Shown here one piece after another: positions 25,388 to 35,179 of a stretch of DNA of 36,932 nucleotides (position 1 is the first letter of the stretch; every line of letters starts with the position of its first letter). Source of the DNA: Candidatus Woesearchaeota archaeon (lineage in GTDB: Archaea > Nanobdellota > Nanobdellia > Woesearchaeales > GW2011-AR9); the NCBI GenBank assembly GCA_018657475.1, contig JABHXC010000040.1:1-36932 (forward strand), written 5' to 3'. The notes beneath the pieces are model-generated. The model was given only the letters and a program-made list of their open reading frames with translations, was not told where the DNA came from and searched no databases. A program made the position numbers and the translations under genes.

Positions 25388-27136
25388 CTAATTAATAATT
25401 TTTCTTCCAGAAGAAGTTATTTTTAATGTCTTAAATCTTCCCTTTTGTTCAATTTGTATTAATCCTAGTCCTTGCAATTTATTTATTTTAACTCTAGTTG
25501 TTGGTTTAGTAATCTTAAACCCCTGAGTGATATCTTTATATGAAACAAGCTTATTTTTAATATTCCCTTCATTGATCAGTTTAAGGATATTCATCTCCAT
25601 ATCTGTTAATTCAACTTTTTTCCGTAAATGACTTCCATAGAGGTCAATTGTTTCTGCTTCTATTGCTTTAACTTTGGACTCTTCAATAACTTCTTGATTT
25701 ATGGAAAGAATAATGATTGATTCGTTAGTAGAAGCTAAATCTTTAAGCTCATGTATCTTTTTAATGACCTTACTGAATTCATTTTCACTGATAATGTAAT
25801 CTAGTCTATCTAAAAGGATCACACTTTTCTCGCTCTTTTTCATGAATTCTGAAATTAATTTGAACAAATTGTTAATATCAGTTTCACACGCTTGTCCTTC
25901 AACTTGATTTTTATTAAGCCAAATAAATGAAGTTCTTTCTAAATTGTATTTTTTCTTAACTTCTCTAGGATCTTCCCTAAGGATGCCTAACCCAGCAAAT
26001 CCTCTGTTTAAAGATCCGATAAACAATTCGTGAGCGTGATTTTCATCATCATCTCTAATTAAATATACTTTTCTTGGATTAAGTGTTATATCACTTTGAC
26101 TATATTTTTTCTCTTCAACTTCAACATTTATTCCTAATTTTTTAAGGGTGACTTTTGCTTTATCTAGTTTTGACTGAACTTCTTCTCGAGATCTGTATAA
26201 TGAAAAGAGGAAGAAAAGAACTCCTGCGACAACTATTATTAGAAAACCTAGGCTGAATAGATGCCTTTTTTGAACTGAAGTGATTTCTTGCCCTACATTT
26301 TTTAGGGGGGTTAAGATGATTAATCTCCATGTTTCTTGGCCAAGAACAATATCTGAAGAAGTCATAATTGTTTTCCCAAATCCATTAAAATCAGTGATCA
26401 TGTTTAATCTTTTTTCTGATTCTGGAAGTTTTTCTATTATTTCAGAAAATTCATTAATTTCTTCACTTTTAAGCAGAGTTTCGAAAGTATCTAAATTAAT
26501 TAAGAGAAAATAATTTTTCTTTTCTTCTAAAATTGAATGGATGTAAAGATTACGAAGATAGTCTAATTCAATAATGCTCATAAGTATGCCTTCAAACTCT
26601 GCAAGAAAATTTGGGTAGGGTGTATAAGCATTAGTTTCAAATAACGGTGCGGAAACAATAATTTGTTGATGATCTCCTTGTCTCACCATTCCTGCAACAA
26701 AAGGTTCATTAGTTTCTTTTGGTGTTTTGAAATAATTCTTGTTTTTAATATTTAAACCTAGATAATCTGAATATTCTTCTTCTGAACATTCAACTATTTG
26801 TCCATACTTGTCAACTCTCAGAAGAGAGTTTATTTTTCCTTCAACTTTTTCATGGATTGCTTTCATATTTCCCGTACAATGTTCTAAATCTAATGTTTCC
26901 ATTGCTGGAAATTTGCTTAATGTGACAAGTTCGTCTCTTACTTGTAAAATGTGATTTTCTATCTGCATCGCAGCTGACTCAGTTTTTGTCATCTGACTTT
27001 CTCTAATCTGGTCAACTATGACTTCTTCAATCTTAAAAAATGAAAGAGTGTTAGTGAGAATAACTACTCCCAGAATAACTAGTGCTATTAAAATAACTAA
27101 TGTTAATTTTGTATCTTTCCCTAATTTTATACTCAT
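25388..27136 (-). CDS. Membrane sensor-regulator: Cache domain, TM, DUF835, winged helix
   Basis: 582 residues. TM1 (about 13-32), an extracytoplasmic region (about 33-290) with a double-Cache pattern (KYGQIVECSEEEYSDYLGLN, AGMVRQGDHQQIIVSAPLFE), TM2 (about 293-313), a short coiled coil, DUF835 (about 355-500; WLNKNQVEGQACETDI, then SVILLDRLDYIISENEFSKV), and a C-terminal winged helix (about 510-582; MEMNILKLINEG and KPTTRVKINKLQGLGLIQIE). This is a one-component receptor that binds a ligand outside and DNA inside. It lies between two operons sharing the same direct-repeat element, so it is their likely regulator. Confidence 0.85.
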   Translation of the reverse strand: MSIKLGKDTKLTLVILIALVILGVVILTNTLSFFKIEEVIVDQIRESQMTKTESAAMQIENHILQVRDELVTLSKFPAMETLDLEHCTGNMKAIHEKVEGKINSLLRVDKYGQIVECSEEEYSDYLGLNIKNKNYFKTPKETNEPFVAGMVRQGDHQQIIVSAPLFETNAYTPYPNFLAEFEGILMSIIELDYLRNLYIHSILEEKKNYFLLINLDTFETLLKSEEINEFSEIIEKLPESEKRLNMITDFNGFGKTIMTSSDIVLGQETWRLIILTPLKNVGQEITSVQKRHLFSLGFLIIVVAGVLFFLFSLYRSREEVQSKLDKAKVTLKKLGINVEVEEKKYSQSDITLNPRKVYLIRDDDENHAHELFIGSLNRGFAGLGILREDPREVKKKYNLERTSFIWLNKNQVEGQACETDINNLFKLISEFMKKSEKSVILLDRLDYIISENEFSKVIKKIHELKDLASTNESIIILSINQEVIEESKVKAIEAETIDLYGSHLRKKVELTDMEMNILKLINEGNIKNKLVSYKDITQGFKITKPTTRVKINKLQGLGLIQIEQKGRFKTLKITSSGRKIIN

Positions 27137-27230: not shown

Positions 27231-28088
27231 ATGAAAGAGAAGATAGGTAAAGGAAATTTACTGAAAAAACTCAAAGACTCACTTAAGCTCAAGTTTGATT
27301 CACCTTGGGAGAAGTATTTTTTTGCTGGATTATTAATATTAACACTTTTTACAGCTATTTTTACTTTTTCTACATTTACATCATCACATAATATGGAGAT
27401 GAATATGGATTCAAATCAGATTACTGGCAACTCAATTTTAGAATTGGAAAAAAGTCCAGAAGAGATGTATAAGAAGTTTCAATGTTCATGTTGTGGGCAG
27501 GCAATAGATGCTGGATGCTGTGGTATGGCTAAACAAAGAAAAGAATATGTTGATCAATTGATGTTAGGTGGCTTAAATGAAAATGAAGTTACTGTTAAGA
27601 TGGTTAAAAAATTTGGATTTGATATTTTGATGGATCCTTCGGAAGAAGATGAGATAAAAGAGTTTATTCAAGGGCAATCTTCGGATAATCCACCAGAAAT
27701 AATTATTGAACCAGTAACAAAAAACTTAGGAGTTGTTAAACAGAGTGAAGGGAAAGTTTCAACTTTTTTTACATTAAAAAATCTTGGTGGTAGTGATTTA
27801 GTTATTGAAAACATGGATACATCTTGTATGTGTACTTCTGTAAGAATTATTTATAATGGTAAGGAAGGGCCAATATTTGGGATGAGCATGCATGGTACTA
27901 ACCCTGAAAATTATAAACTCACAATTGCACCGGGAGATTCAGCACAGTTAGAGGTTTTGTATGATCCTTTAGCACATGGAATACAGAAAAAACCTGAAGC
28001 AAGAATTATACGGGAAGTAACTATTGTGTCAAATGATCCAGTAGATTTTCAGAAAAAATTAAGAATAGAACTAGTTCAGGTTCCTTAG
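27231..28088 (+). CDS. Membrane-anchored CcmH-like cysteine domain plus DUF1573 domain
   Basis: 285 residues. One TM helix (about 31-50) anchors an outside part. Residues 83-135 resemble CcmH/NrfF: CSCCG (85-89), AGCCG (95-98), then helices with LMLGGLNENEV and MVKKFGFDIL, as in the CcmH pattern of Cys pair, helix, G-x-x-x-x-E-I, YG-x-x-VL. CcmH reduces haem-protein apocytochrome thiols. Residues 155-285 are DUF1573, with DTSCMCTS (197-204) and an insertion MSMHGTNP (218-225). First gene of a long redox/metal operon. The thiol function is inferred. Confidence 0.78.
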   Translation: MKEKIGKGNLLKKLKDSLKLKFDSPWEKYFFAGLLILTLFTAIFTFSTFTSSHNMEMNMDSNQITGNSILELEKSPEEMYKKFQCSCCGQAIDAGCCGMAKQRKEYVDQLMLGGLNENEVTVKMVKKFGFDILMDPSEEDEIKEFIQGQSSDNPPEIIIEPVTKNLGVVKQSEGKVSTFFTLKNLGGSDLVIENMDTSCMCTSVRIIYNGKEGPIFGMSMHGTNPENYKLTIAPGDSAQLEVLYDPLAHGIQKKPEARIIREVTIVSNDPVDFQKKLRIELVQVP

Positions 28089-29501: not shown

Positions 29502-30743
29502 ATGGTTTCAGTTAACATAAAGAAATTTAGTACTATTTTTTTGATTATTGTATTTCTGCTTAGCTTAGCGCCTTTGGTTCAAGCTGAAGACCAAGGAGAA
29601 TATCATACTGCTGTTATATTTTACAATGAAGCATGCAGTATGTGTTCCATGTACATTAAACAAGAGTTAATTCCAACATTAGAGGAAGCAGGAATAAAAG
29701 AAATAATAAAAAAAGATTATATTAATGAAAAGAAAAATAGAGTTGTTCTTAATGAACTAAACAAGAGATTAAATATTCCTCCAAAATTACAAGGTCATTT
29801 TACGGTGTTTATTGATAACAAAGTAGTTTTAGGAGGTCATGTTCCTAAACATGTTGTAATGGACTTGTTAACTAAAGATTTAGAATATGATCGAATCTTA
29901 GTCTTACAAGATGAAATGAAAAATGCTAAGTCATACTTTGCATGGGGCTTTAAAGGAGACGCTAAAGAGTACACAATTGATTCTTCTATTACAGGGTATC
30001 TTAACTGGTTTACAGAAAATGAAGATTCACTCACAAAACCAGAAAATTCTTATTCAAGTTCATGGAAATTTTCTACAATGCTTCCATTAATAGTTTCTTC
30101 AGGATTTTTAGATGGAATTAACCCTTGCGCTTTTGCTGTTCTTCTTTTGTTTATTGCTTTCCTTTACACAATAAAGAGAACAAAAGCAAATATTTTGAAG
30201 ATGGGAATTGCATACATATCTGCAATATTCTTAGCGTATATTTTAATTGGAATAGGATTAATTAAAGCATTTATTTTTACAGGATATCCTCATCTCATGG
30301 CCCAGATTAGTGCTTATTTAATGATTGCTTTAGGGGTAATTGGGATATGGGGTTATCTTTTCCCTAAACAAAGACTTGATTTAGGTATTCCTTCATTTAC
30401 AAAAGAGTATCTAAAGAAATGGATGTATAAATCAACAATTCCTGCAGCTTTAATTTTAGGATTTTTAGTAGGGTTGTGTACATTTCCTTGTTCAGGAGGA
30501 ATTTATGTTGCTGTAGTAGGGCTATTAGCAGTGAAAACAACTTTTGCTCAGGGCATGGTTTATTTAATCATCTATAATATTATGTTTGTTATGCCATTAA
30601 TAATTATTTTAATTATGGCTTCAAACAAAAGGACAACAAAGAAGATTACTGAATGGGAACAATCTAAAAGTAAAATAATGAGGTTAATTTTAGGAATTGT
30701 TATGGTCTTATTGGGACTAATAATTCTGTTTTGGTTTATTTAA
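29502..30743 (+). CDS. Exported thioredoxin-like domain fused to CcdA-type membrane domain
   Basis: 413 residues. After a signal peptide (1-28) comes a thioredoxin-like domain with CSMC (45-48) and a later substrate-facing segment (HFTVFIDNKVVLGGHVPK). Then six or seven helices with DGINPCAFAVLL in the first and GLCTFPCSGGIYVAV in the fourth, the CcdA/DsbD cysteine pair. Arrangement is like DsbD with the periplasmic domain at the N-terminus only. It passes reducing equivalents outward. It follows the rhodanese gene by 1 nt. Confidence 0.85.
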   Translation: MVSVNIKKFSTIFLIIVFLLSLAPLVQAEDQGEYHTAVIFYNEACSMCSMYIKQELIPTLEEAGIKEIIKKDYINEKKNRVVLNELNKRLNIPPKLQGHFTVFIDNKVVLGGHVPKHVVMDLLTKDLEYDRILVLQDEMKNAKSYFAWGFKGDAKEYTIDSSITGYLNWFTENEDSLTKPENSYSSSWKFSTMLPLIVSSGFLDGINPCAFAVLLLFIAFLYTIKRTKANILKMGIAYISAIFLAYILIGIGLIKAFIFTGYPHLMAQISAYLMIALGVIGIWGYLFPKQRLDLGIPSFTKEYLKKWMYKSTIPAALILGFLVGLCTFPCSGGIYVAVVGLLAVKTTFAQGMVYLIIYNIMFVMPLIIILIMASNKRTTKKITEWEQSKSKIMRLILGIVMVLLGLIILFWFI

Positions 30744-30744
30744 T

Positions 30745-31257
30745 ATGGTGCTAACAATATTGTGGACAACATTAGGGATTTTAGTTTTGTTTCTAGTATT
30801 TGTGTTTTTAAGAAAAATTATCCAAAAAAAGTTGAAATTAAAAATCTGTGCTATTTGTGCGGCTGTTGGCTTAACTTGGATCACACTATTAATTTTGAAA
30901 TGGAGTGGTTTTCTCATTGATAATCTTTTAATTGGAATATTAATGGGAGAAAGTATTGTGGGGATAATGTATCTCTTTGAGAAAAAAATTAAAGAAGCTA
31001 AGAAAGAAAATTTACTTTGGTTAAAAGTTTTTATAATTCTTATTGGAACTTCTTTGGTTTACTTGTTGTTGTCAGAGTTTTATGGGTTAGGATTTTGGAT
31101 TTTTTTGTTGATTTCTTTTGTGTTTTTAATTTATATTTTAATCTCAATGAAAAGTTCAGTGAGGAAAAAAAACAAGTGGGTCGTAGAACACAAGTATGGG
31201 AAATTCAGTAAAGAAATAAAAAAATTAGAAGAAAAATTTGAACATTGTTGTGATTAA
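30745..31257 (+). CDS. Membrane protein with C-terminal Cys pair
   Basis: 170 residues. Four predicted helices, the second containing cysteines (ICAICAAVGLTWITLLIL), then a soluble tail ending KKLEEKFEHCCD with C168 and C169. It begins 1 nt after the preceding CcdA-type gene. No family recognised. The Cys placement in membrane and tail suggests thiol or metal chemistry linked to the adjacent carrier. Confidence 0.6.
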   Translation: MVLTILWTTLGILVLFLVFVFLRKIIQKKLKLKICAICAAVGLTWITLLILKWSGFLIDNLLIGILMGESIVGIMYLFEKKIKEAKKENLLWLKVFIILIGTSLVYLLLSEFYGLGFWIFLLISFVFLIYILISMKSSVRKKNKWVVEHKYGKFSKEIKKLEEKFEHCCD

Positions 31258-31275: not shown

Positions 31276-32103
31276 ATGGAAGAAGATAAAAAAGAATATC
31301 AAGATCACATGAAAAAACATCATGATGATACAAAACATGGAAATGAACATATGGGTGAACATAAAACAATAAGTTTCAGAAAACACAAAAATGAACATAA
31401 AGAAAAAGAAATAAAAATTGCTAAACCAATTTGGGCGTTATTGTTAGTAGTAGTAGTAATTATTTTCTTTAATCAATATCAAATTGGTACTGTTTCAGGA
31501 ATGGTGCACTCAACAGTGAAATCTAGTACAGGAAGTTTAAGCTTGCTTGGTGGTGATCTTTCTGCGATAGATATTAATGAATTAAAGTCAACAGGTCATA
31601 CAGTGGCAGCGGTTTTCCCAGTAGAAAGTTTTCAAACAGCAGAAGATGCCATGGCAGCAATGTTTCCAACGGGAACACCAGATTATGGAGAACAACTTGG
31701 TGTGAGTTATGATGATCCGATTGGGAGTTTAGCAACCCTTGCTAATATGTATAGGGGATTGAAAGTAGAAGTTGAGCAAAATAATCCGGAAGGCTGGCAG
31801 AGATTTATGAGTTTAGCTTCAAAACCTGTTGGGATTTCTTGTGAGTACTGTTGTGGATTAAAAACGATTGGTATTGATAAGAATGGAAATTCAGCTTGTG
31901 GGTGCCAACACAATCCAGCTTTACTTTCAGTAGCTTTGTATCTTTCAGCTTACACTGATTATAGTGATGGAGAAATTTTACAGGAAGTAATGAAATGGAA
32001 AACTTTGTTTTTTCCAAAAAACATGATTGAGTTAGGAGCAAGTCTTGCTGGTGGGGATACTTCTTCACTAAAAGATTTACCTGGTATGGTGGGAGGTTGT
32101 TAA
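31276..32103 (+). CDS. His-rich, membrane-anchored cysteine-cluster protein ending in LPGMVGGC
   Basis: 275 residues. The cytosolic N-terminus (1-45) is rich in His (eleven His, for example HMKKHHDDTKHGNEHMGEH), followed by a TM helix (53-66). Outside, residues 187-245 hold CEYCCG (189-194), ACGCQH (207-212) and helices DYSDGEILQEVMKW and KTLFFPKNM. This is a PCYCGC-like Cys/His cluster, structurally like the CcmH-like block of the first gene (CxxCCG ... CxC, helix, E-I). The protein ends DTSSLKDLPGMVGGC with Cys as the last residue, a tail shared with the 73-residue protein downstream. Likely Cu(I) or persulfide binding; inferred. Confidence 0.7.
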   Translation: MEEDKKEYQDHMKKHHDDTKHGNEHMGEHKTISFRKHKNEHKEKEIKIAKPIWALLLVVVVIIFFNQYQIGTVSGMVHSTVKSSTGSLSLLGGDLSAIDINELKSTGHTVAAVFPVESFQTAEDAMAAMFPTGTPDYGEQLGVSYDDPIGSLATLANMYRGLKVEVEQNNPEGWQRFMSLASKPVGISCEYCCGLKTIGIDKNGNSACGCQHNPALLSVALYLSAYTDYSDGEILQEVMKWKTLFFPKNMIELGASLAGGDTSSLKDLPGMVGGC

Positions 32104-32104
32104 A

Positions 32105-32254
32105 ATAAATATCATTAATTTATTTAGAAATCTTTACTACGGCAATAAGAGATTATTTTTTCTTTCTCTTTTAATTGTTGGTGTTTTGGTGTTGGTTGGT
32201 TGTACCACTGGAGAAACAAGTGGCACTAATTCAGGATCAATGTGTGAAGGTTAA
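32105..32254 (+). CDS. 49-residue lipoprotein with non-canonical ATA start
   Basis: Frame (I/M)NIINLFRNLYYGNKRLFFLS... with a hydrophobic signal ending LVGC (Cys33) and a short tail TTGETSGTNSGSMCEG. No ATG, GTG or TTG occurs in this frame upstream of the hydrophobic segment; the codon with correct spacing is ATA at 32105, 7 nt after GGGAGGT (32091-32097), which also encodes the Val-Gly-Gly of the previous protein. Clear lipoprotein signal and Shine-Dalgarno argue for a real gene; ATA start could instead mean decay of an ATG. Confidence 0.45.
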   Translation: MNIINLFRNLYYGNKRLFFLSLLIVGVLVLVGCTTGETSGTNSGSMCEG

Positions 32255-32301
32255 TGATAAAAACTTAACAATTTTTAATAATTAATAAGGAGGAATAAAA
32301 A

Positions 32302-32523
32302 ATGAAAAAAACAACAATTTTAACAGTAGTATTAGCAGTATTAGTTTTAGTATCTGTAGTACAAGCAGTTCAATTAGATGGACTAAAAGAGGTGGTGTCA
32401 GAAGGCCAGTTAACTGTGAAATCAGCGAGCACTACACTTCCTGTTGCAAATAGTCCAGCAAAAACAACAAGTTCTGTACCAAAAAGCATTCAGAATTTAC
32501 CTCAAATGGTAGGTGGATGTTGA
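32302..32523 (+). CDS. Secreted 73-residue protein ending in LPQMVGGC
   Basis: A signal peptide (1-22, ...VVQA) is followed by a short Ser/Thr/Pro-rich chain and a tail PKSIQNLPQMVGGC. Mature length about 51 residues, with the only Cys at the C-terminus. The tail L-P-x-M-V-G-G-C, preceded by T-S-S, is shared with the 275-residue protein encoded 200 nt upstream. Strong Shine-Dalgarno AGGAGGAA. It could be a carrier peptide presenting a free C-terminal thiol (for copper or persulfide), or the substrate of a C-terminal modification. No family recognised. Confidence 0.75.
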   Translation: MKKTTILTVVLAVLVLVSVVQAVQLDGLKEVVSEGQLTVKSASTTLPVANSPAKTTSSVPKSIQNLPQMVGGC

Positions 32524-32567: not shown

Positions 32568-33752
32568 ATGGAAGAAAAAAAATCATCTTTAACTCATCAA
32601 AAAGAAAAAATTGCTAGAAAGAAAGTATCTCATAATGCATCAAAATTTAAAAAGAGATTTATTTTAAATGAAAAAAATTATTACGCATTTCTAATCGTAC
32701 TAGGGGCAATTCTTGTTGCTATTGCAATCTTTAATGTAATTCAGGTAAATCCTTTAGATAATGTCATGACTGGAAAAATAGTGGAGGCTGAAGAAGCGGC
32801 TAAACCAGCTAAACTAGAATTATTTACAATTATAGATTCAAACTGTAAAGATTGTTCAACTGTGACTGATTTAGTTGAATCAATTAAAAATGCTAATACA
32901 GAAATAACTGAGGAACAAAATTTAGTTTTAGATTCTGAAGAAGCACGAGCTATTATTAGTGAATATGGGATTGAAAGAATTCCAACAATTATTCTTACAG
33001 GAGAAATTGATAAATTTAATGCTAGAGAATTAGAGAAGAGAGGTGATGCTCTGGTGTATTCTCAAGCTAAACCACCATATGTTAATCCACTTAACAAAAA
33101 AGTAATGGGAAAAGTTTCGACAATTTTGATAGAGGATTCTTCTTGTGAAGAATGTTTTAGTTTACGTAGTGTGTCTACTACATTAAAACAGCAAAATGTT
33201 GTTCTAGGTACTGAAGAAATTTTAGATAGAACTGATACTAAAGCTAAAAATTTAATTAGTCAATTTGGTATTTTGAAATTACCAGCTCTTTTAGTTTCTG
33301 AAGACATAGATGTATATCCTTTTGCTGAGAGTTTACAGGGTTCTACAATACAAAAAACTGATGGGTATTATGTGATGGAAACCCCAATACCACCTTACTT
33401 TGACATAAACACTAAAACAATTAAAGGTTTGTTAAGTATTACAATGATTACTGATAATCTTTGTGAAGATTGTTATGATGTTAATACGCATAAGTTGGCA
33501 TTAGCACAAATGGGAGTAACGGTTGCTGAAGAAAAAACTGTTGACTTAAACTCTGTTACTGGAATGGCATTAAAATTAAAGTATGATCTTAAGAAAGTAC
33601 CAACAATAATTCTTGAGGGAGATTTGGATACTTATGAAGGGTTTGATGCTTTTTGGAAAGAAAGAATTGGTACTGTAGAAAATGACGGTGCGTATGTTTT
33701 TAGAAGTGTTGAATTAATGGGTGGTGAATTTAATGATTTAAGTAATGGTTAG
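32568..33752 (+). CDS. Membrane-anchored protein with three thioredoxin-like CxxC domains
   Basis: 394 residues. Cytosolic basic N-terminus, TM helix (about 39-58), then three tandem thioredoxin-like repeats outside. Active-site pairs are CKDC (93-96), CEEC (193-196) and CEDC (299-302), spaced about 100-106 residues; each has a cis-Pro strand (RIPTIIL, KLPALLV, KVPTIIL). After the TM comes NVMTGKIVEA, like a phrase in other proteins of this operon. It likely relays electrons between the CcdA-type carriers and substrate thiols. Strong Shine-Dalgarno AGGAGGA. Confidence 0.85.
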   Translation: MEEKKSSLTHQKEKIARKKVSHNASKFKKRFILNEKNYYAFLIVLGAILVAIAIFNVIQVNPLDNVMTGKIVEAEEAAKPAKLELFTIIDSNCKDCSTVTDLVESIKNANTEITEEQNLVLDSEEARAIISEYGIERIPTIILTGEIDKFNARELEKRGDALVYSQAKPPYVNPLNKKVMGKVSTILIEDSSCEECFSLRSVSTTLKQQNVVLGTEEILDRTDTKAKNLISQFGILKLPALLVSEDIDVYPFAESLQGSTIQKTDGYYVMETPIPPYFDINTKTIKGLLSITMITDNLCEDCYDVNTHKLALAQMGVTVAEEKTVDLNSVTGMALKLKYDLKKVPTIILEGDLDTYEGFDAFWKERIGTVENDGAYVFRSVELMGGEFNDLSNG

Positions 33753-33770: not shown

Positions 33771-34157
33771 ATGAAATTAAAAATAATTGCAATGATATTG
33801 CTTGTTATAGGAACCGTACTCTTTGTTGGATGTTCTAGCAATAACGCTAATACAACTGAAAATTTGGTAACACCTACGGGAGAAGTAAAAACAATCAAAA
33901 TGGTGGCAAAACAATGGGCTTTTGTCCCAGAAAATATTGAAGTTAATTTAGGTGATACTGTGCAATTAATCATAGAAAGTGTTGATGTTGATCATGGAAT
34001 TAATCTTCCCTCTTTTGGTGTGAATGAATACTTGCAATCTGGCCAAACTGTTCAAATTGAATTTGTTGCTGATAAGAAAGGAGAGTTTGGATTTAGTTGT
34101 TTTGTAATGTGTGGTAGTGGTCACATAGGAATGAGGGGTAATTTGATTGTTAAATAA
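33771..34157 (+). CDS. Lipoprotein with a CuA-type cupredoxin domain
   Basis: 128 residues. Lipobox FVGC (Cys21) anchors a cupredoxin (about 38-128). Ligands of a binuclear CuA centre are all present: H75 (DVDHGI), C110-x3-C114-x3-H118-x2-M121 (CFVMCGSGHIGM), plus the usual aromatic W49 (KQWAF). This is the electron-entry domain of cytochrome oxidase subunit II and N2O reductase, but no oxidase or reductase catalytic subunit and no TM hairpin is present. Role is probably electron transfer or copper carriage. It lies between the triple thioredoxin gene and a CcdA-type carrier. Confidence 0.9.
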   Translation: MKLKIIAMILLVIGTVLFVGCSSNNANTTENLVTPTGEVKTIKMVAKQWAFVPENIEVNLGDTVQLIIESVDVDHGINLPSFGVNEYLQSGQTVQIEFVADKKGEFGFSCFVMCGSGHIGMRGNLIVK

Positions 34158-34180: not shown

Positions 34181-35179
34181 ATGAAGAAGACTTTTTTATC
34201 GATATTGCTTGTGATTTTGGTAGTCTTAACTTCAATCTCTGTACTGGCTGAATCTGATGTGCCCATTGGATTGCAAAAGATAATAGATTATAATAACCAG
34301 AGTACGGCTGAATTTGCAGTAAAAGTATCTTTTTTGATAGCTTTTATTGCAGGAATGTTAGGGATATTGTCTCCATGTATTTTGCCATTTTTGCCAGCAT
34401 ATTTTTCTTACACTTTTAAAGAGAAAAAAGACATTACTAAAATGACTTTAATATTCTTTTTAGGATTCTCTCTTGTATTTGTTTCAATGGGAATTGTTGC
34501 GGGCTTTATTGGCGCACAGGTTTTATCGGTAGTACAAAGTGGGTGGTTAGTAACATTAGCAGGGATTTTTATTGTAATTCTTGGAATTATGTCATTACTG
34601 GGAAAAGGTTTTTCTTCACTTATTAAACCAAATAAAAAATTTAAAAATGATGCTTCTGGAACTTTTTTGTTTGGTATTTTCTTTGCACTTGGTTGGACTG
34701 CGTGTTTAGGGCCAATTCTTGCAGGAATATTGGGAATAGGTGCCATAATGGGGAATATTTTTTATTCAGCATTACTTCTGTTTTTTTATTCTCTTGGAAA
34801 TCTTGTACCTTTGTTTATTATATCTATATTTTATGATAAGTTTCACCTAGAAAGAAGTAAGTTTATCCGAGGAAGAATGTTTAACTTTGGTCTTTTTGGA
34901 AAAGAGTTTAAGATTCATTCCACAAATTTAATTTCTGGATTTATCTTTATATTGTTTGGAATAGTTATTGTAATTTATCAAGGAACTTCAGTATTTAATA
35001 AATGGGACATTTTTGGAACAAAAGCATTATTTTATTCTGTTCAAGATACATTAATTAATTGGCAGTATGCAAATTATTTGGGATTTTTGCTGTTAATATT
35101 ATTTGTGTTTGGAGTTGGGTGGTTTTTATGGAAGAGGAGAAAGAAAAGTAAAAAGCCAATAAATTTCTACTTTAAATAA
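34181..35179 (+). CDS. CcdA-type thiol-disulfide carrier
   Basis: 332 residues. A signal-like N-terminus (1-23) precedes six or more helices: GILSPCILPFLPAY in the first and GWTACLGPILAGIL in the fourth give the conserved cysteines (family P-C and A-C motifs). An extra C-terminal helix ends in a basic tail (WKRRKKSKK). Third CcdA-type protein in the window and the most canonical one. It follows the CuA lipoprotein gene by 23 nt, so it may keep the CuA cysteines reduced. Confidence 0.88.
   Translation: MKKTFLSILLVILVVLTSISVLAESDVPIGLQKIIDYNNQSTAEFAVKVSFLIAFIAGMLGILSPCILPFLPAYFSYTFKEKKDITKMTLIFFLGFSLVFVSMGIVAGFIGAQVLSVVQSGWLVTLAGIFIVILGIMSLLGKGFSSLIKPNKKFKNDASGTFLFGIFFALGWTACLGPILAGILGIGAIMGNIFYSALLLFFYSLGNLVPLFIISIFYDKFHLERSKFIRGRMFNFGLFGKEFKIHSTNLISGFIFILFGIVIVIYQGTSVFNKWDIFGTKALFYSVQDTLINWQYANYLGFLLLILFVFGVGWFLWKRRKKSKKPINFYFK

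Follow-up and report, generated by a model that had tools for sequence, protein, structure and literature searches.

What leads two neighbouring archaeal genes to encode exported proteins that share little except the same short C-terminal peptide? The question is raised by a stretch of 36,932 nucleotides from Candidatus Woesearchaeota archaeon (contig JABHXC010000040.1), referred to here as the window. In it, ORF A (the CYS protein) and the small ORF B both end in LPxMVGGC, with the cysteine as the last residue (Table 1).

Table 1. Features of the tail-bearing gene pair and of the genes around it; positions are those of the window.
Feature	Position	Strand	Remarks
Upstream protein, thioredoxin-like front and CcdA-like membrane part	29502..30743	+	weak family matches only
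Membrane protein with CxxC (c16 family)	30745..31257	+	often near type B modules
ORF A (CYS protein), 275 aa	31276..32103	+	cytosolic His-rich N-terminus, one membrane helix, outer helical domain, C-terminal tail
Cys cluster of ORF A (CEYCCG...CGCxH): C189, C192, C193, C208, C210, H212	31840..31911	+	invariant in alignments
ORF A C-terminal tail, SSLKDLPGMVGGC	32062..32100	+	MVGGC end in 118/122 distinct relatives
Short lipoprotein-like frame (LVLVGC...SGSMCEG)	32105..32254	+	decayed-looking; likely to be a degenerate GGGC lipoprotein
ORF B, small tail protein, 73 aa	32302..32523	+	N-terminal membrane anchor/signal, Ser/Ala/Gly/Thr linker, tail
ORF B C-terminal tail, SIQNLPQMVGGC	32485..32520	+	last five residues are the sole invariant columns among 34 aligned relatives
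TRXn, membrane-anchored, three thioredoxin-like domains	32568..33752	+	Pfam Thioredoxin_3; candidate tail partner
CuA cupredoxin lipoprotein, CFVMCGSGHIGM	33771..34157	+	C-x3-C-x3-H-x2-M within a cupredoxin domain, as in CuA proteins
CcdA/DsbD-type transmembrane electron carrier	34181..35179	+	PF02683, E 2.4e-16

Two unrelated proteins with one tail

Both tails lie where an earlier note on this DNA had placed them. That note had described the rest of the two proteins as unrelated, and BLASTP agreed, aligning little beyond the final 12 residues, of which 8 are identical. It had further remarked on a T-S-S shortly before each tail, which turned out not to be kept in relatives, and on the lack of any other cysteine in the small protein, which was borne out: the single cysteine of ORF B is its last residue. 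Across the 1.06-Mb assembly, MVGGC followed by a stop codon was found at two sites only, the ends of ORF A and ORF B.

The membrane helix of ORF A spans about residues 50 to 78. Exactly six cysteines are present in 41 of 46 aligned ORF A proteins, five in the cluster and one at the C-terminus. Histidine makes up 11.8% of the cytosolic N-terminus in the family (31276-31420 in the window, and relatives) versus 0.8% elsewhere in the protein. In the AF2 model of ORF A, pLDDT is about 98 in the core and 94 to 81 over residues 251-275 (87 and 81 in the final segments), and the tail is packed onto the protein's own domain with fair confidence.

Searches of Pfam, NCBIfam and PDB sequences revealed no relative of ORF A, a Foldseek comparison of its model with the PDB gave no match, and a known fold was rejected after none was found in the PDB or the viral library. 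ORF B belongs to no Pfam or NCBIfam family. The SoxY profile matched neither protein nor any of 25 ORF A relatives; the CcmH profile (PF03918) matched neither ORF A nor 24 relatives at E 0.01; the Pfam profile of PCYCGC lipoproteins gave no match; and neither protein matches DUF411/CopG, which is a separate, co-occurring gene. Because membership of the SoxY, CcmH, PCYCGC, CopG and sortase-substrate groups was tested and in no case found, and no Pfam or NCBIfam family applies, we rate the A/B pair as categorically new, although the kind of work it would do, thiol and copper chemistry on exported proteins, is familiar. No relevant paper mentioning the tail came up in the literature searched, in line with the earlier remark that the note knew of no described system with it. 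Prenylation was rejected, the tail being neither a CaaX nor a CC nor a CXC end.

Distribution and coupled change of the tails

We examined how the tail is distributed among genomes. A DNA pattern for MVGGC followed by a stop was present in 91 of 288 genomes from the order. With rare exceptions these have two or three copies close by on one strand, and a reversed-pattern control was found in 3 of 288; the pattern behaves alike in other orders of the class. ORF A relatives occur in 94 of the 288 genomes, and the two sets overlap in 90 (Fisher p ~1e-68). Four genomes have an ORF A match and lack the tail pattern (two of these matches are weak, a third is truncated where its contig stops and the fourth is an orphan), and a single genome has the pattern, at a contig edge, with no ORF A match. 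The pattern counts and controls rule out a chance match.

Independently of the tail, all GTDB genomes were scanned with two patterns from inside ORF A, CEYCCG and KWKTLFFP. This yielded 80 loci; on contigs of sufficient length, both ORF A and the small protein beside it were tailed with few exceptions. The loci span Woesearchaeota, Pacearchaeota, Aenigmatarchaeota, Diapherotrites, Micrarchaeota, Altiarchaeota and a nanohaloarchaeal relative. Within the searches made, the A/B pair is confined to DPANN archaea. Three module loci (L153, L160 and L204, the last with a frameshifted ORF A) come from MAGs labelled bacterium or Patescibacteria; they are probably mis-binned archaeal DNA, because their ORF A sequences nest in the archaeal tree. 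Also among the module loci are contigs of ETNP3_MAG_14 and ETNP7_MAG_72, MAGs of the naming series of PMC10936187. A search for plasmid or viral relatives gave no match of either kind, and an origin from a plasmid or virus was discarded.

The 122 distinct ORF A proteins end in MVGGC (118), QVGGC (3) or IVGEC (1), and the tail is near-invariant in these 122 and in 125 ORF B tails beyond linkers that cannot be aligned. In 140 of 143 ORF B relatives the last cysteine is the sole one of the final 45 residues. An orphan ORF A relative (L213:5781-6401, genome G075) has a degenerate cysteine cluster and the tail IVGEC, and no tailed small partner was found adjacent to it. Two types of module can be told apart. 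In type A modules, which form the majority, the stretch common to both proteins is about 13 residues long, S-x-[LI]-x-[DN]-L-P-x-M-V-G-G-C, and in type B modules ORF A lacks the LP part, as does the small protein in most cases. The LP element is present in both members of 83 pairs, in neither of 26 and in one of 5, a distribution that partly reflects shared ancestry. Some type B loci encode two small tail proteins, one of which has its anchor and tail separated by an insert, GWTxNExMNYEMHGxxPAR. Small tail proteins with this insert occur at L117, L121, L124, L125, L127, L128 and L131, among other loci of type B.

The first residue of the pentapeptide proved the most informative. Among 114 paired modules, 111 have methionine in both proteins (one of them with an added spurious frame), three have glutamine in both (L152, from Micrarchaeum; L182, from genome G290; and G431), and none is mixed. 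In a tree built without the tails, L152 and L182 fall into different supported clades, and genus mates of the G290 and G431 genomes have methionine in both proteins. As read from these sequences, the change from methionine to glutamine has three independent origins, each in both genes. DNA copying between the two genes is an unlikely cause, because the codon spelling of the glutamine tails differs between the genes in all three modules. More generally, 151 tails from the tail-independent loci have 78 DNA spellings, with all four bases seen at every fourfold site; third codon positions are thus free, and selection acts on the peptide. The earlier note's view of the tail as selected, and as a possible recognition sequence, therefore gains from both near-invariance beyond a variable linker and co-variation between the two proteins. 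That one common reader recognizes both tails is well supported by the sequence comparisons, the agreement at the M/Q position in all pairs being the strongest single evidence.

No other residue of ORF A convincingly tracked the change from methionine to glutamine, and no column of the TRXn alignment clearly indicated a tail-binding site or tracked that change. Apparent LVGGC ends at L040 and L172 were set aside as overlapping spurious frames, and lone QVGGC matches in genomes G284, G115, G044 and G372 were taken as chance, since the frames had at most 17 residues or none ended in this way.

Further small proteins of a similar build accompany the modules. Tiny lipoproteins that have a flexible Ser/Pro/Gln/Gly linker and carry GGGC(G) close to the C-terminus were found at about 30 loci, often right after ORF A or ORF B (for example L005:1127, L018:2300, L137:1023 and L188:6426). 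Their presence by the module supports the idea that membrane-tethered thiol peptides form a family.

Neighbouring genes and the candidate partner

In 41 gene contexts and the 80 further loci, the constant genes are ORF A and the small tail protein only. Because nothing besides these two occurs at every module, the partner of the tails has to be inferred. Two gene orders prevail, A-B-TRXn-(cupredoxin)-CcdA as in the window, and A-B-(B')-DUF411-membrane proteins. The order CYS-tail-TRXn is found at most of the 80 tail-independent loci, TRXn lies near all three glutamine modules, and DUF411 stands directly beside CYS at five loci (L186, L193, L195-L197).

We then compared gene profiles between 40 near-complete genomes with the module and 40 without it, all from one order. 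TRXn was detected in 32/40 versus 2/40 genomes (it exists without the module in G118 and G066) and DUF411 in 27/40 versus 0/40. At least one of the two was present in 40/40 versus 2/40 (p 1.6e-20), and among genomes with the module all 8 that lack TRXn have DUF411 and all 13 that lack DUF411 have TRXn (p 0.029), both p-values serving as guides because the compared genomes are not independent. CcdA-type proteins (PF02683) were found in 34/40 versus 17/40 and strong CuA-cupredoxin relatives in 24/40 versus 5/40; neither gene is obligatory for the module, and genes with the CuA motif occur at about a dozen of the 41 loci. The Cu-ATPase family TIGR01511 was dropped as a marker, since most genomes encode it whether or not they have the module. 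Neighbours and profiles together back the link to CcdA, thioredoxin and copper that had been suggested for the tail.

TRXn has CxxC motifs at residues 93-96, 193-196 and 299-302, and these six cysteines are invariant in 44 relatives. Its AF2 model (pLDDT 90.5) matches protein disulfide isomerase and thioredoxin in the PDB; with a thioredoxin fold and CxxC, it belongs to the thioredoxin superfamily. The DUF411 protein of genomes with the module is CopG (match to 6wis, E 8e-22), a thioredoxin-like protein that binds a Cu4 cluster via CxCC plus Met (PMC7558416). In NCBIfam, the CuA protein of the window is matched best by NosZ and CoxB, in each case by the C-terminal part, and it is of the same kind as the 'NosZ-like' CuA proteins of DPANN archaea (PMC10936187).

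Farther upstream in the window, a CcmH-like cysteine segment (CSCCGQAIDAGCC) is fused to a DUF1573 domain at 27231-28088 (CcmH E 1.9e-5, just below the cut-off), followed by two further DUF1573 ORFs, the last of them fused to a rhodanese. At 25388-27136, divergently from the gene row, lies the gene of a membrane protein that combines a Cache domain, DUF835 and an end resembling DNA-binding domains. Its relatives (PASreg) often adjoin ORF A and may regulate it.

A probable common reader of both tails and its rivals

Our best reading is a conserved A/B module in which the tails dock on one thioredoxin-fold partner and take part in a thiol/copper relay; as a whole we hold it tentatively, a little below an even balance. 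It builds on conservation, pairing, co-variation and gene association, all of which are observed. Of its parts, thiol chemistry at the last cysteine appears quite likely, a copper task for the module is somewhat favoured, and docking on a thioredoxin fold is evenly balanced. ORFs A and B would be held in the membrane by their N-terminal segments and would present the same docking peptide, with a free cysteine, outside the cell; the tails are expected to face outward because the anchors begin with a positive, cytosolic segment. The same partner would bind both tails, TRXn where it is encoded adjacent and CopG/DUF411 in genomes that lack TRXn. Where present, CcdA would pass electrons across the membrane to TRXn, which would reduce the tail cysteines or swap disulfides with them. 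The tails could then hand thiol reducing power, Cu(I) held by Met and Cys, or both, to the cysteine cluster of ORF A, and from there onward to copper proteins, the CuA cupredoxin among them. Among the cargoes proposed for the tail thiol, we favour copper or redox equivalents over a persulfide.

The chief rival, which we consider unlikely, dispenses with an outside enzyme. The tail of ORF A in cis and that of ORF B in trans would contribute Met (or Gln) and Cys ligands to a metal (copper) centre, together with the cysteine cluster of ORF A. A and B alone are universal, as this would predict; ORF A offers five cluster cysteines, a histidine and the terminal cysteine; the AF2 model places the tail beside the domain with fair confidence; and the copper protein DUF411 accompanies the module as tabulated above. 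Exchange of Met for Gln is also a known swap of the axial ligand in blue copper proteins. However, a metal centre by itself does not account for the constant genomic presence of TRXn or CopG, and there is no solved relative by which the site could be judged. Against our preferred reading of docking on a partner it counts that the packing of the ORF A tail in the model fits a role in cis as well, and that TRXn also exists in genomes without the module. An improbable alternative is that the terminal cysteine holds a sulfur intermediate, such as a persulfide, on an arm. The Sox system is known to have partners of the CcdA and thioredoxin kinds, and the GGC-type arm with such neighbours recalls the layout around SoxYZ. 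SoxY carries intermediates on the cysteine of a swinging arm (PMC5336275). The rhodanese-DUF1573 protein upstream within the window would suit such a carrier, but rhodaneses occur in few of the 41 contexts, a SoxY match is absent, the loci showed no further Sox component, and most neighbours whose function is assigned are copper or thioredoxin proteins.

Equally improbable, in our estimate, is a processing or attachment signal, in which an enzyme would read LPxMVGGC and then cut, lipidate or cross-link the protein. The tail is short, strictly C-terminal and common to unrelated proteins, and its LP resembles that of LPxTG. Sortase and archaeosortase signals consist of a motif followed by a membrane helix and basic residues. 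ORF A, ORF B and all listed relatives stop at the cysteine with neither helix nor basic residues beyond, and attachment of this type was rejected. Moreover, LP is absent in type B modules, both proteins are already anchored at the N-terminus, and no family of modifying enzymes recurs at the loci, let alone universally. Of the earlier interpretation of the tail, selection, recognition and novelty thus hold up, the CcdA/thioredoxin/copper link is supported, and the modifying or attaching enzyme is not supported. Least probable by far is shared ancestry alone, with ORF B copied from the 3' end of ORF A and its tail functionless. The likeness does span some 13 residues in type A modules, yet the tail is fixed over deep lineages next to a linker that cannot be aligned, and without selection both would drift alike; the scrambled codons and the changes that hit both copies together likewise argue against it.

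Comparison with described systems places the common-reader module near several of them and within none. As in SoxY, which visits several partners, an exported protein bears the cysteine on a flexible arm at its C-terminus, but there is no sequence relation, the tail stops at its cysteine, one tail is shared by two different membrane-anchored proteins, and copper rather than sulfur genes adjoin it. TlpA reduces ScoI and CoxB ahead of copper (CuA) loading (PMC6696091). This pathway resembles the gene row of the window, which holds a CuA protein, in its membrane-anchored thioredoxin-type reductants for copper-site cysteines of exported proteins, but it has no counterpart of ORFs A and B, and no Sco or PCuAC was recognized in the window. 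CopG/DUF411 co-occurs with the module and adjoins it in type B loci, as a neighbour rather than a relative of A and B, and the module also exists without it. In cytochrome c maturation, CcmH resembles ORF A as an exported helical domain with a cysteine motif served by CcdA and a thioredoxin; ORF A does not match it, the CcmH-like segment of the window lying instead in the upstream DUF1573 fusion. With LPxTG sortase substrates, the likeness is limited to an LP near a C-terminal recognition sequence, and in the A/B tails this LP is dispensable.

A wider proposal, which we regard as doubtful, would make the module part of an undescribed extracytoplasmic system of DPANN archaea. Helix-anchored MVGGC and lipid-anchored GGGCG mini-proteins, with a cysteine-cluster protein of new fold, would present one and the same thiol peptide to a single thioredoxin-fold hub. 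Borne by proteins and tied to the membrane, these peptides would take the place of small-molecule thiols when copper is handled and CuA is loaded.

Over much of the DPANN archaea, two families missing from Pfam, NCBIfam and the PDB thus go together as a constant pair. It is rare for unrelated proteins to carry a five-residue tail that evolves in concert, and this suggests that one reader serves both. The pair offers a way into the extracellular thiol and copper chemistry of a large, mostly uncultured group. When DPANN CuA ('NosZ-like') genes were transferred alone into Pseudomonas, no significant N2O consumption was seen (PMC10936187); the absence of maturation genes may account for this result.
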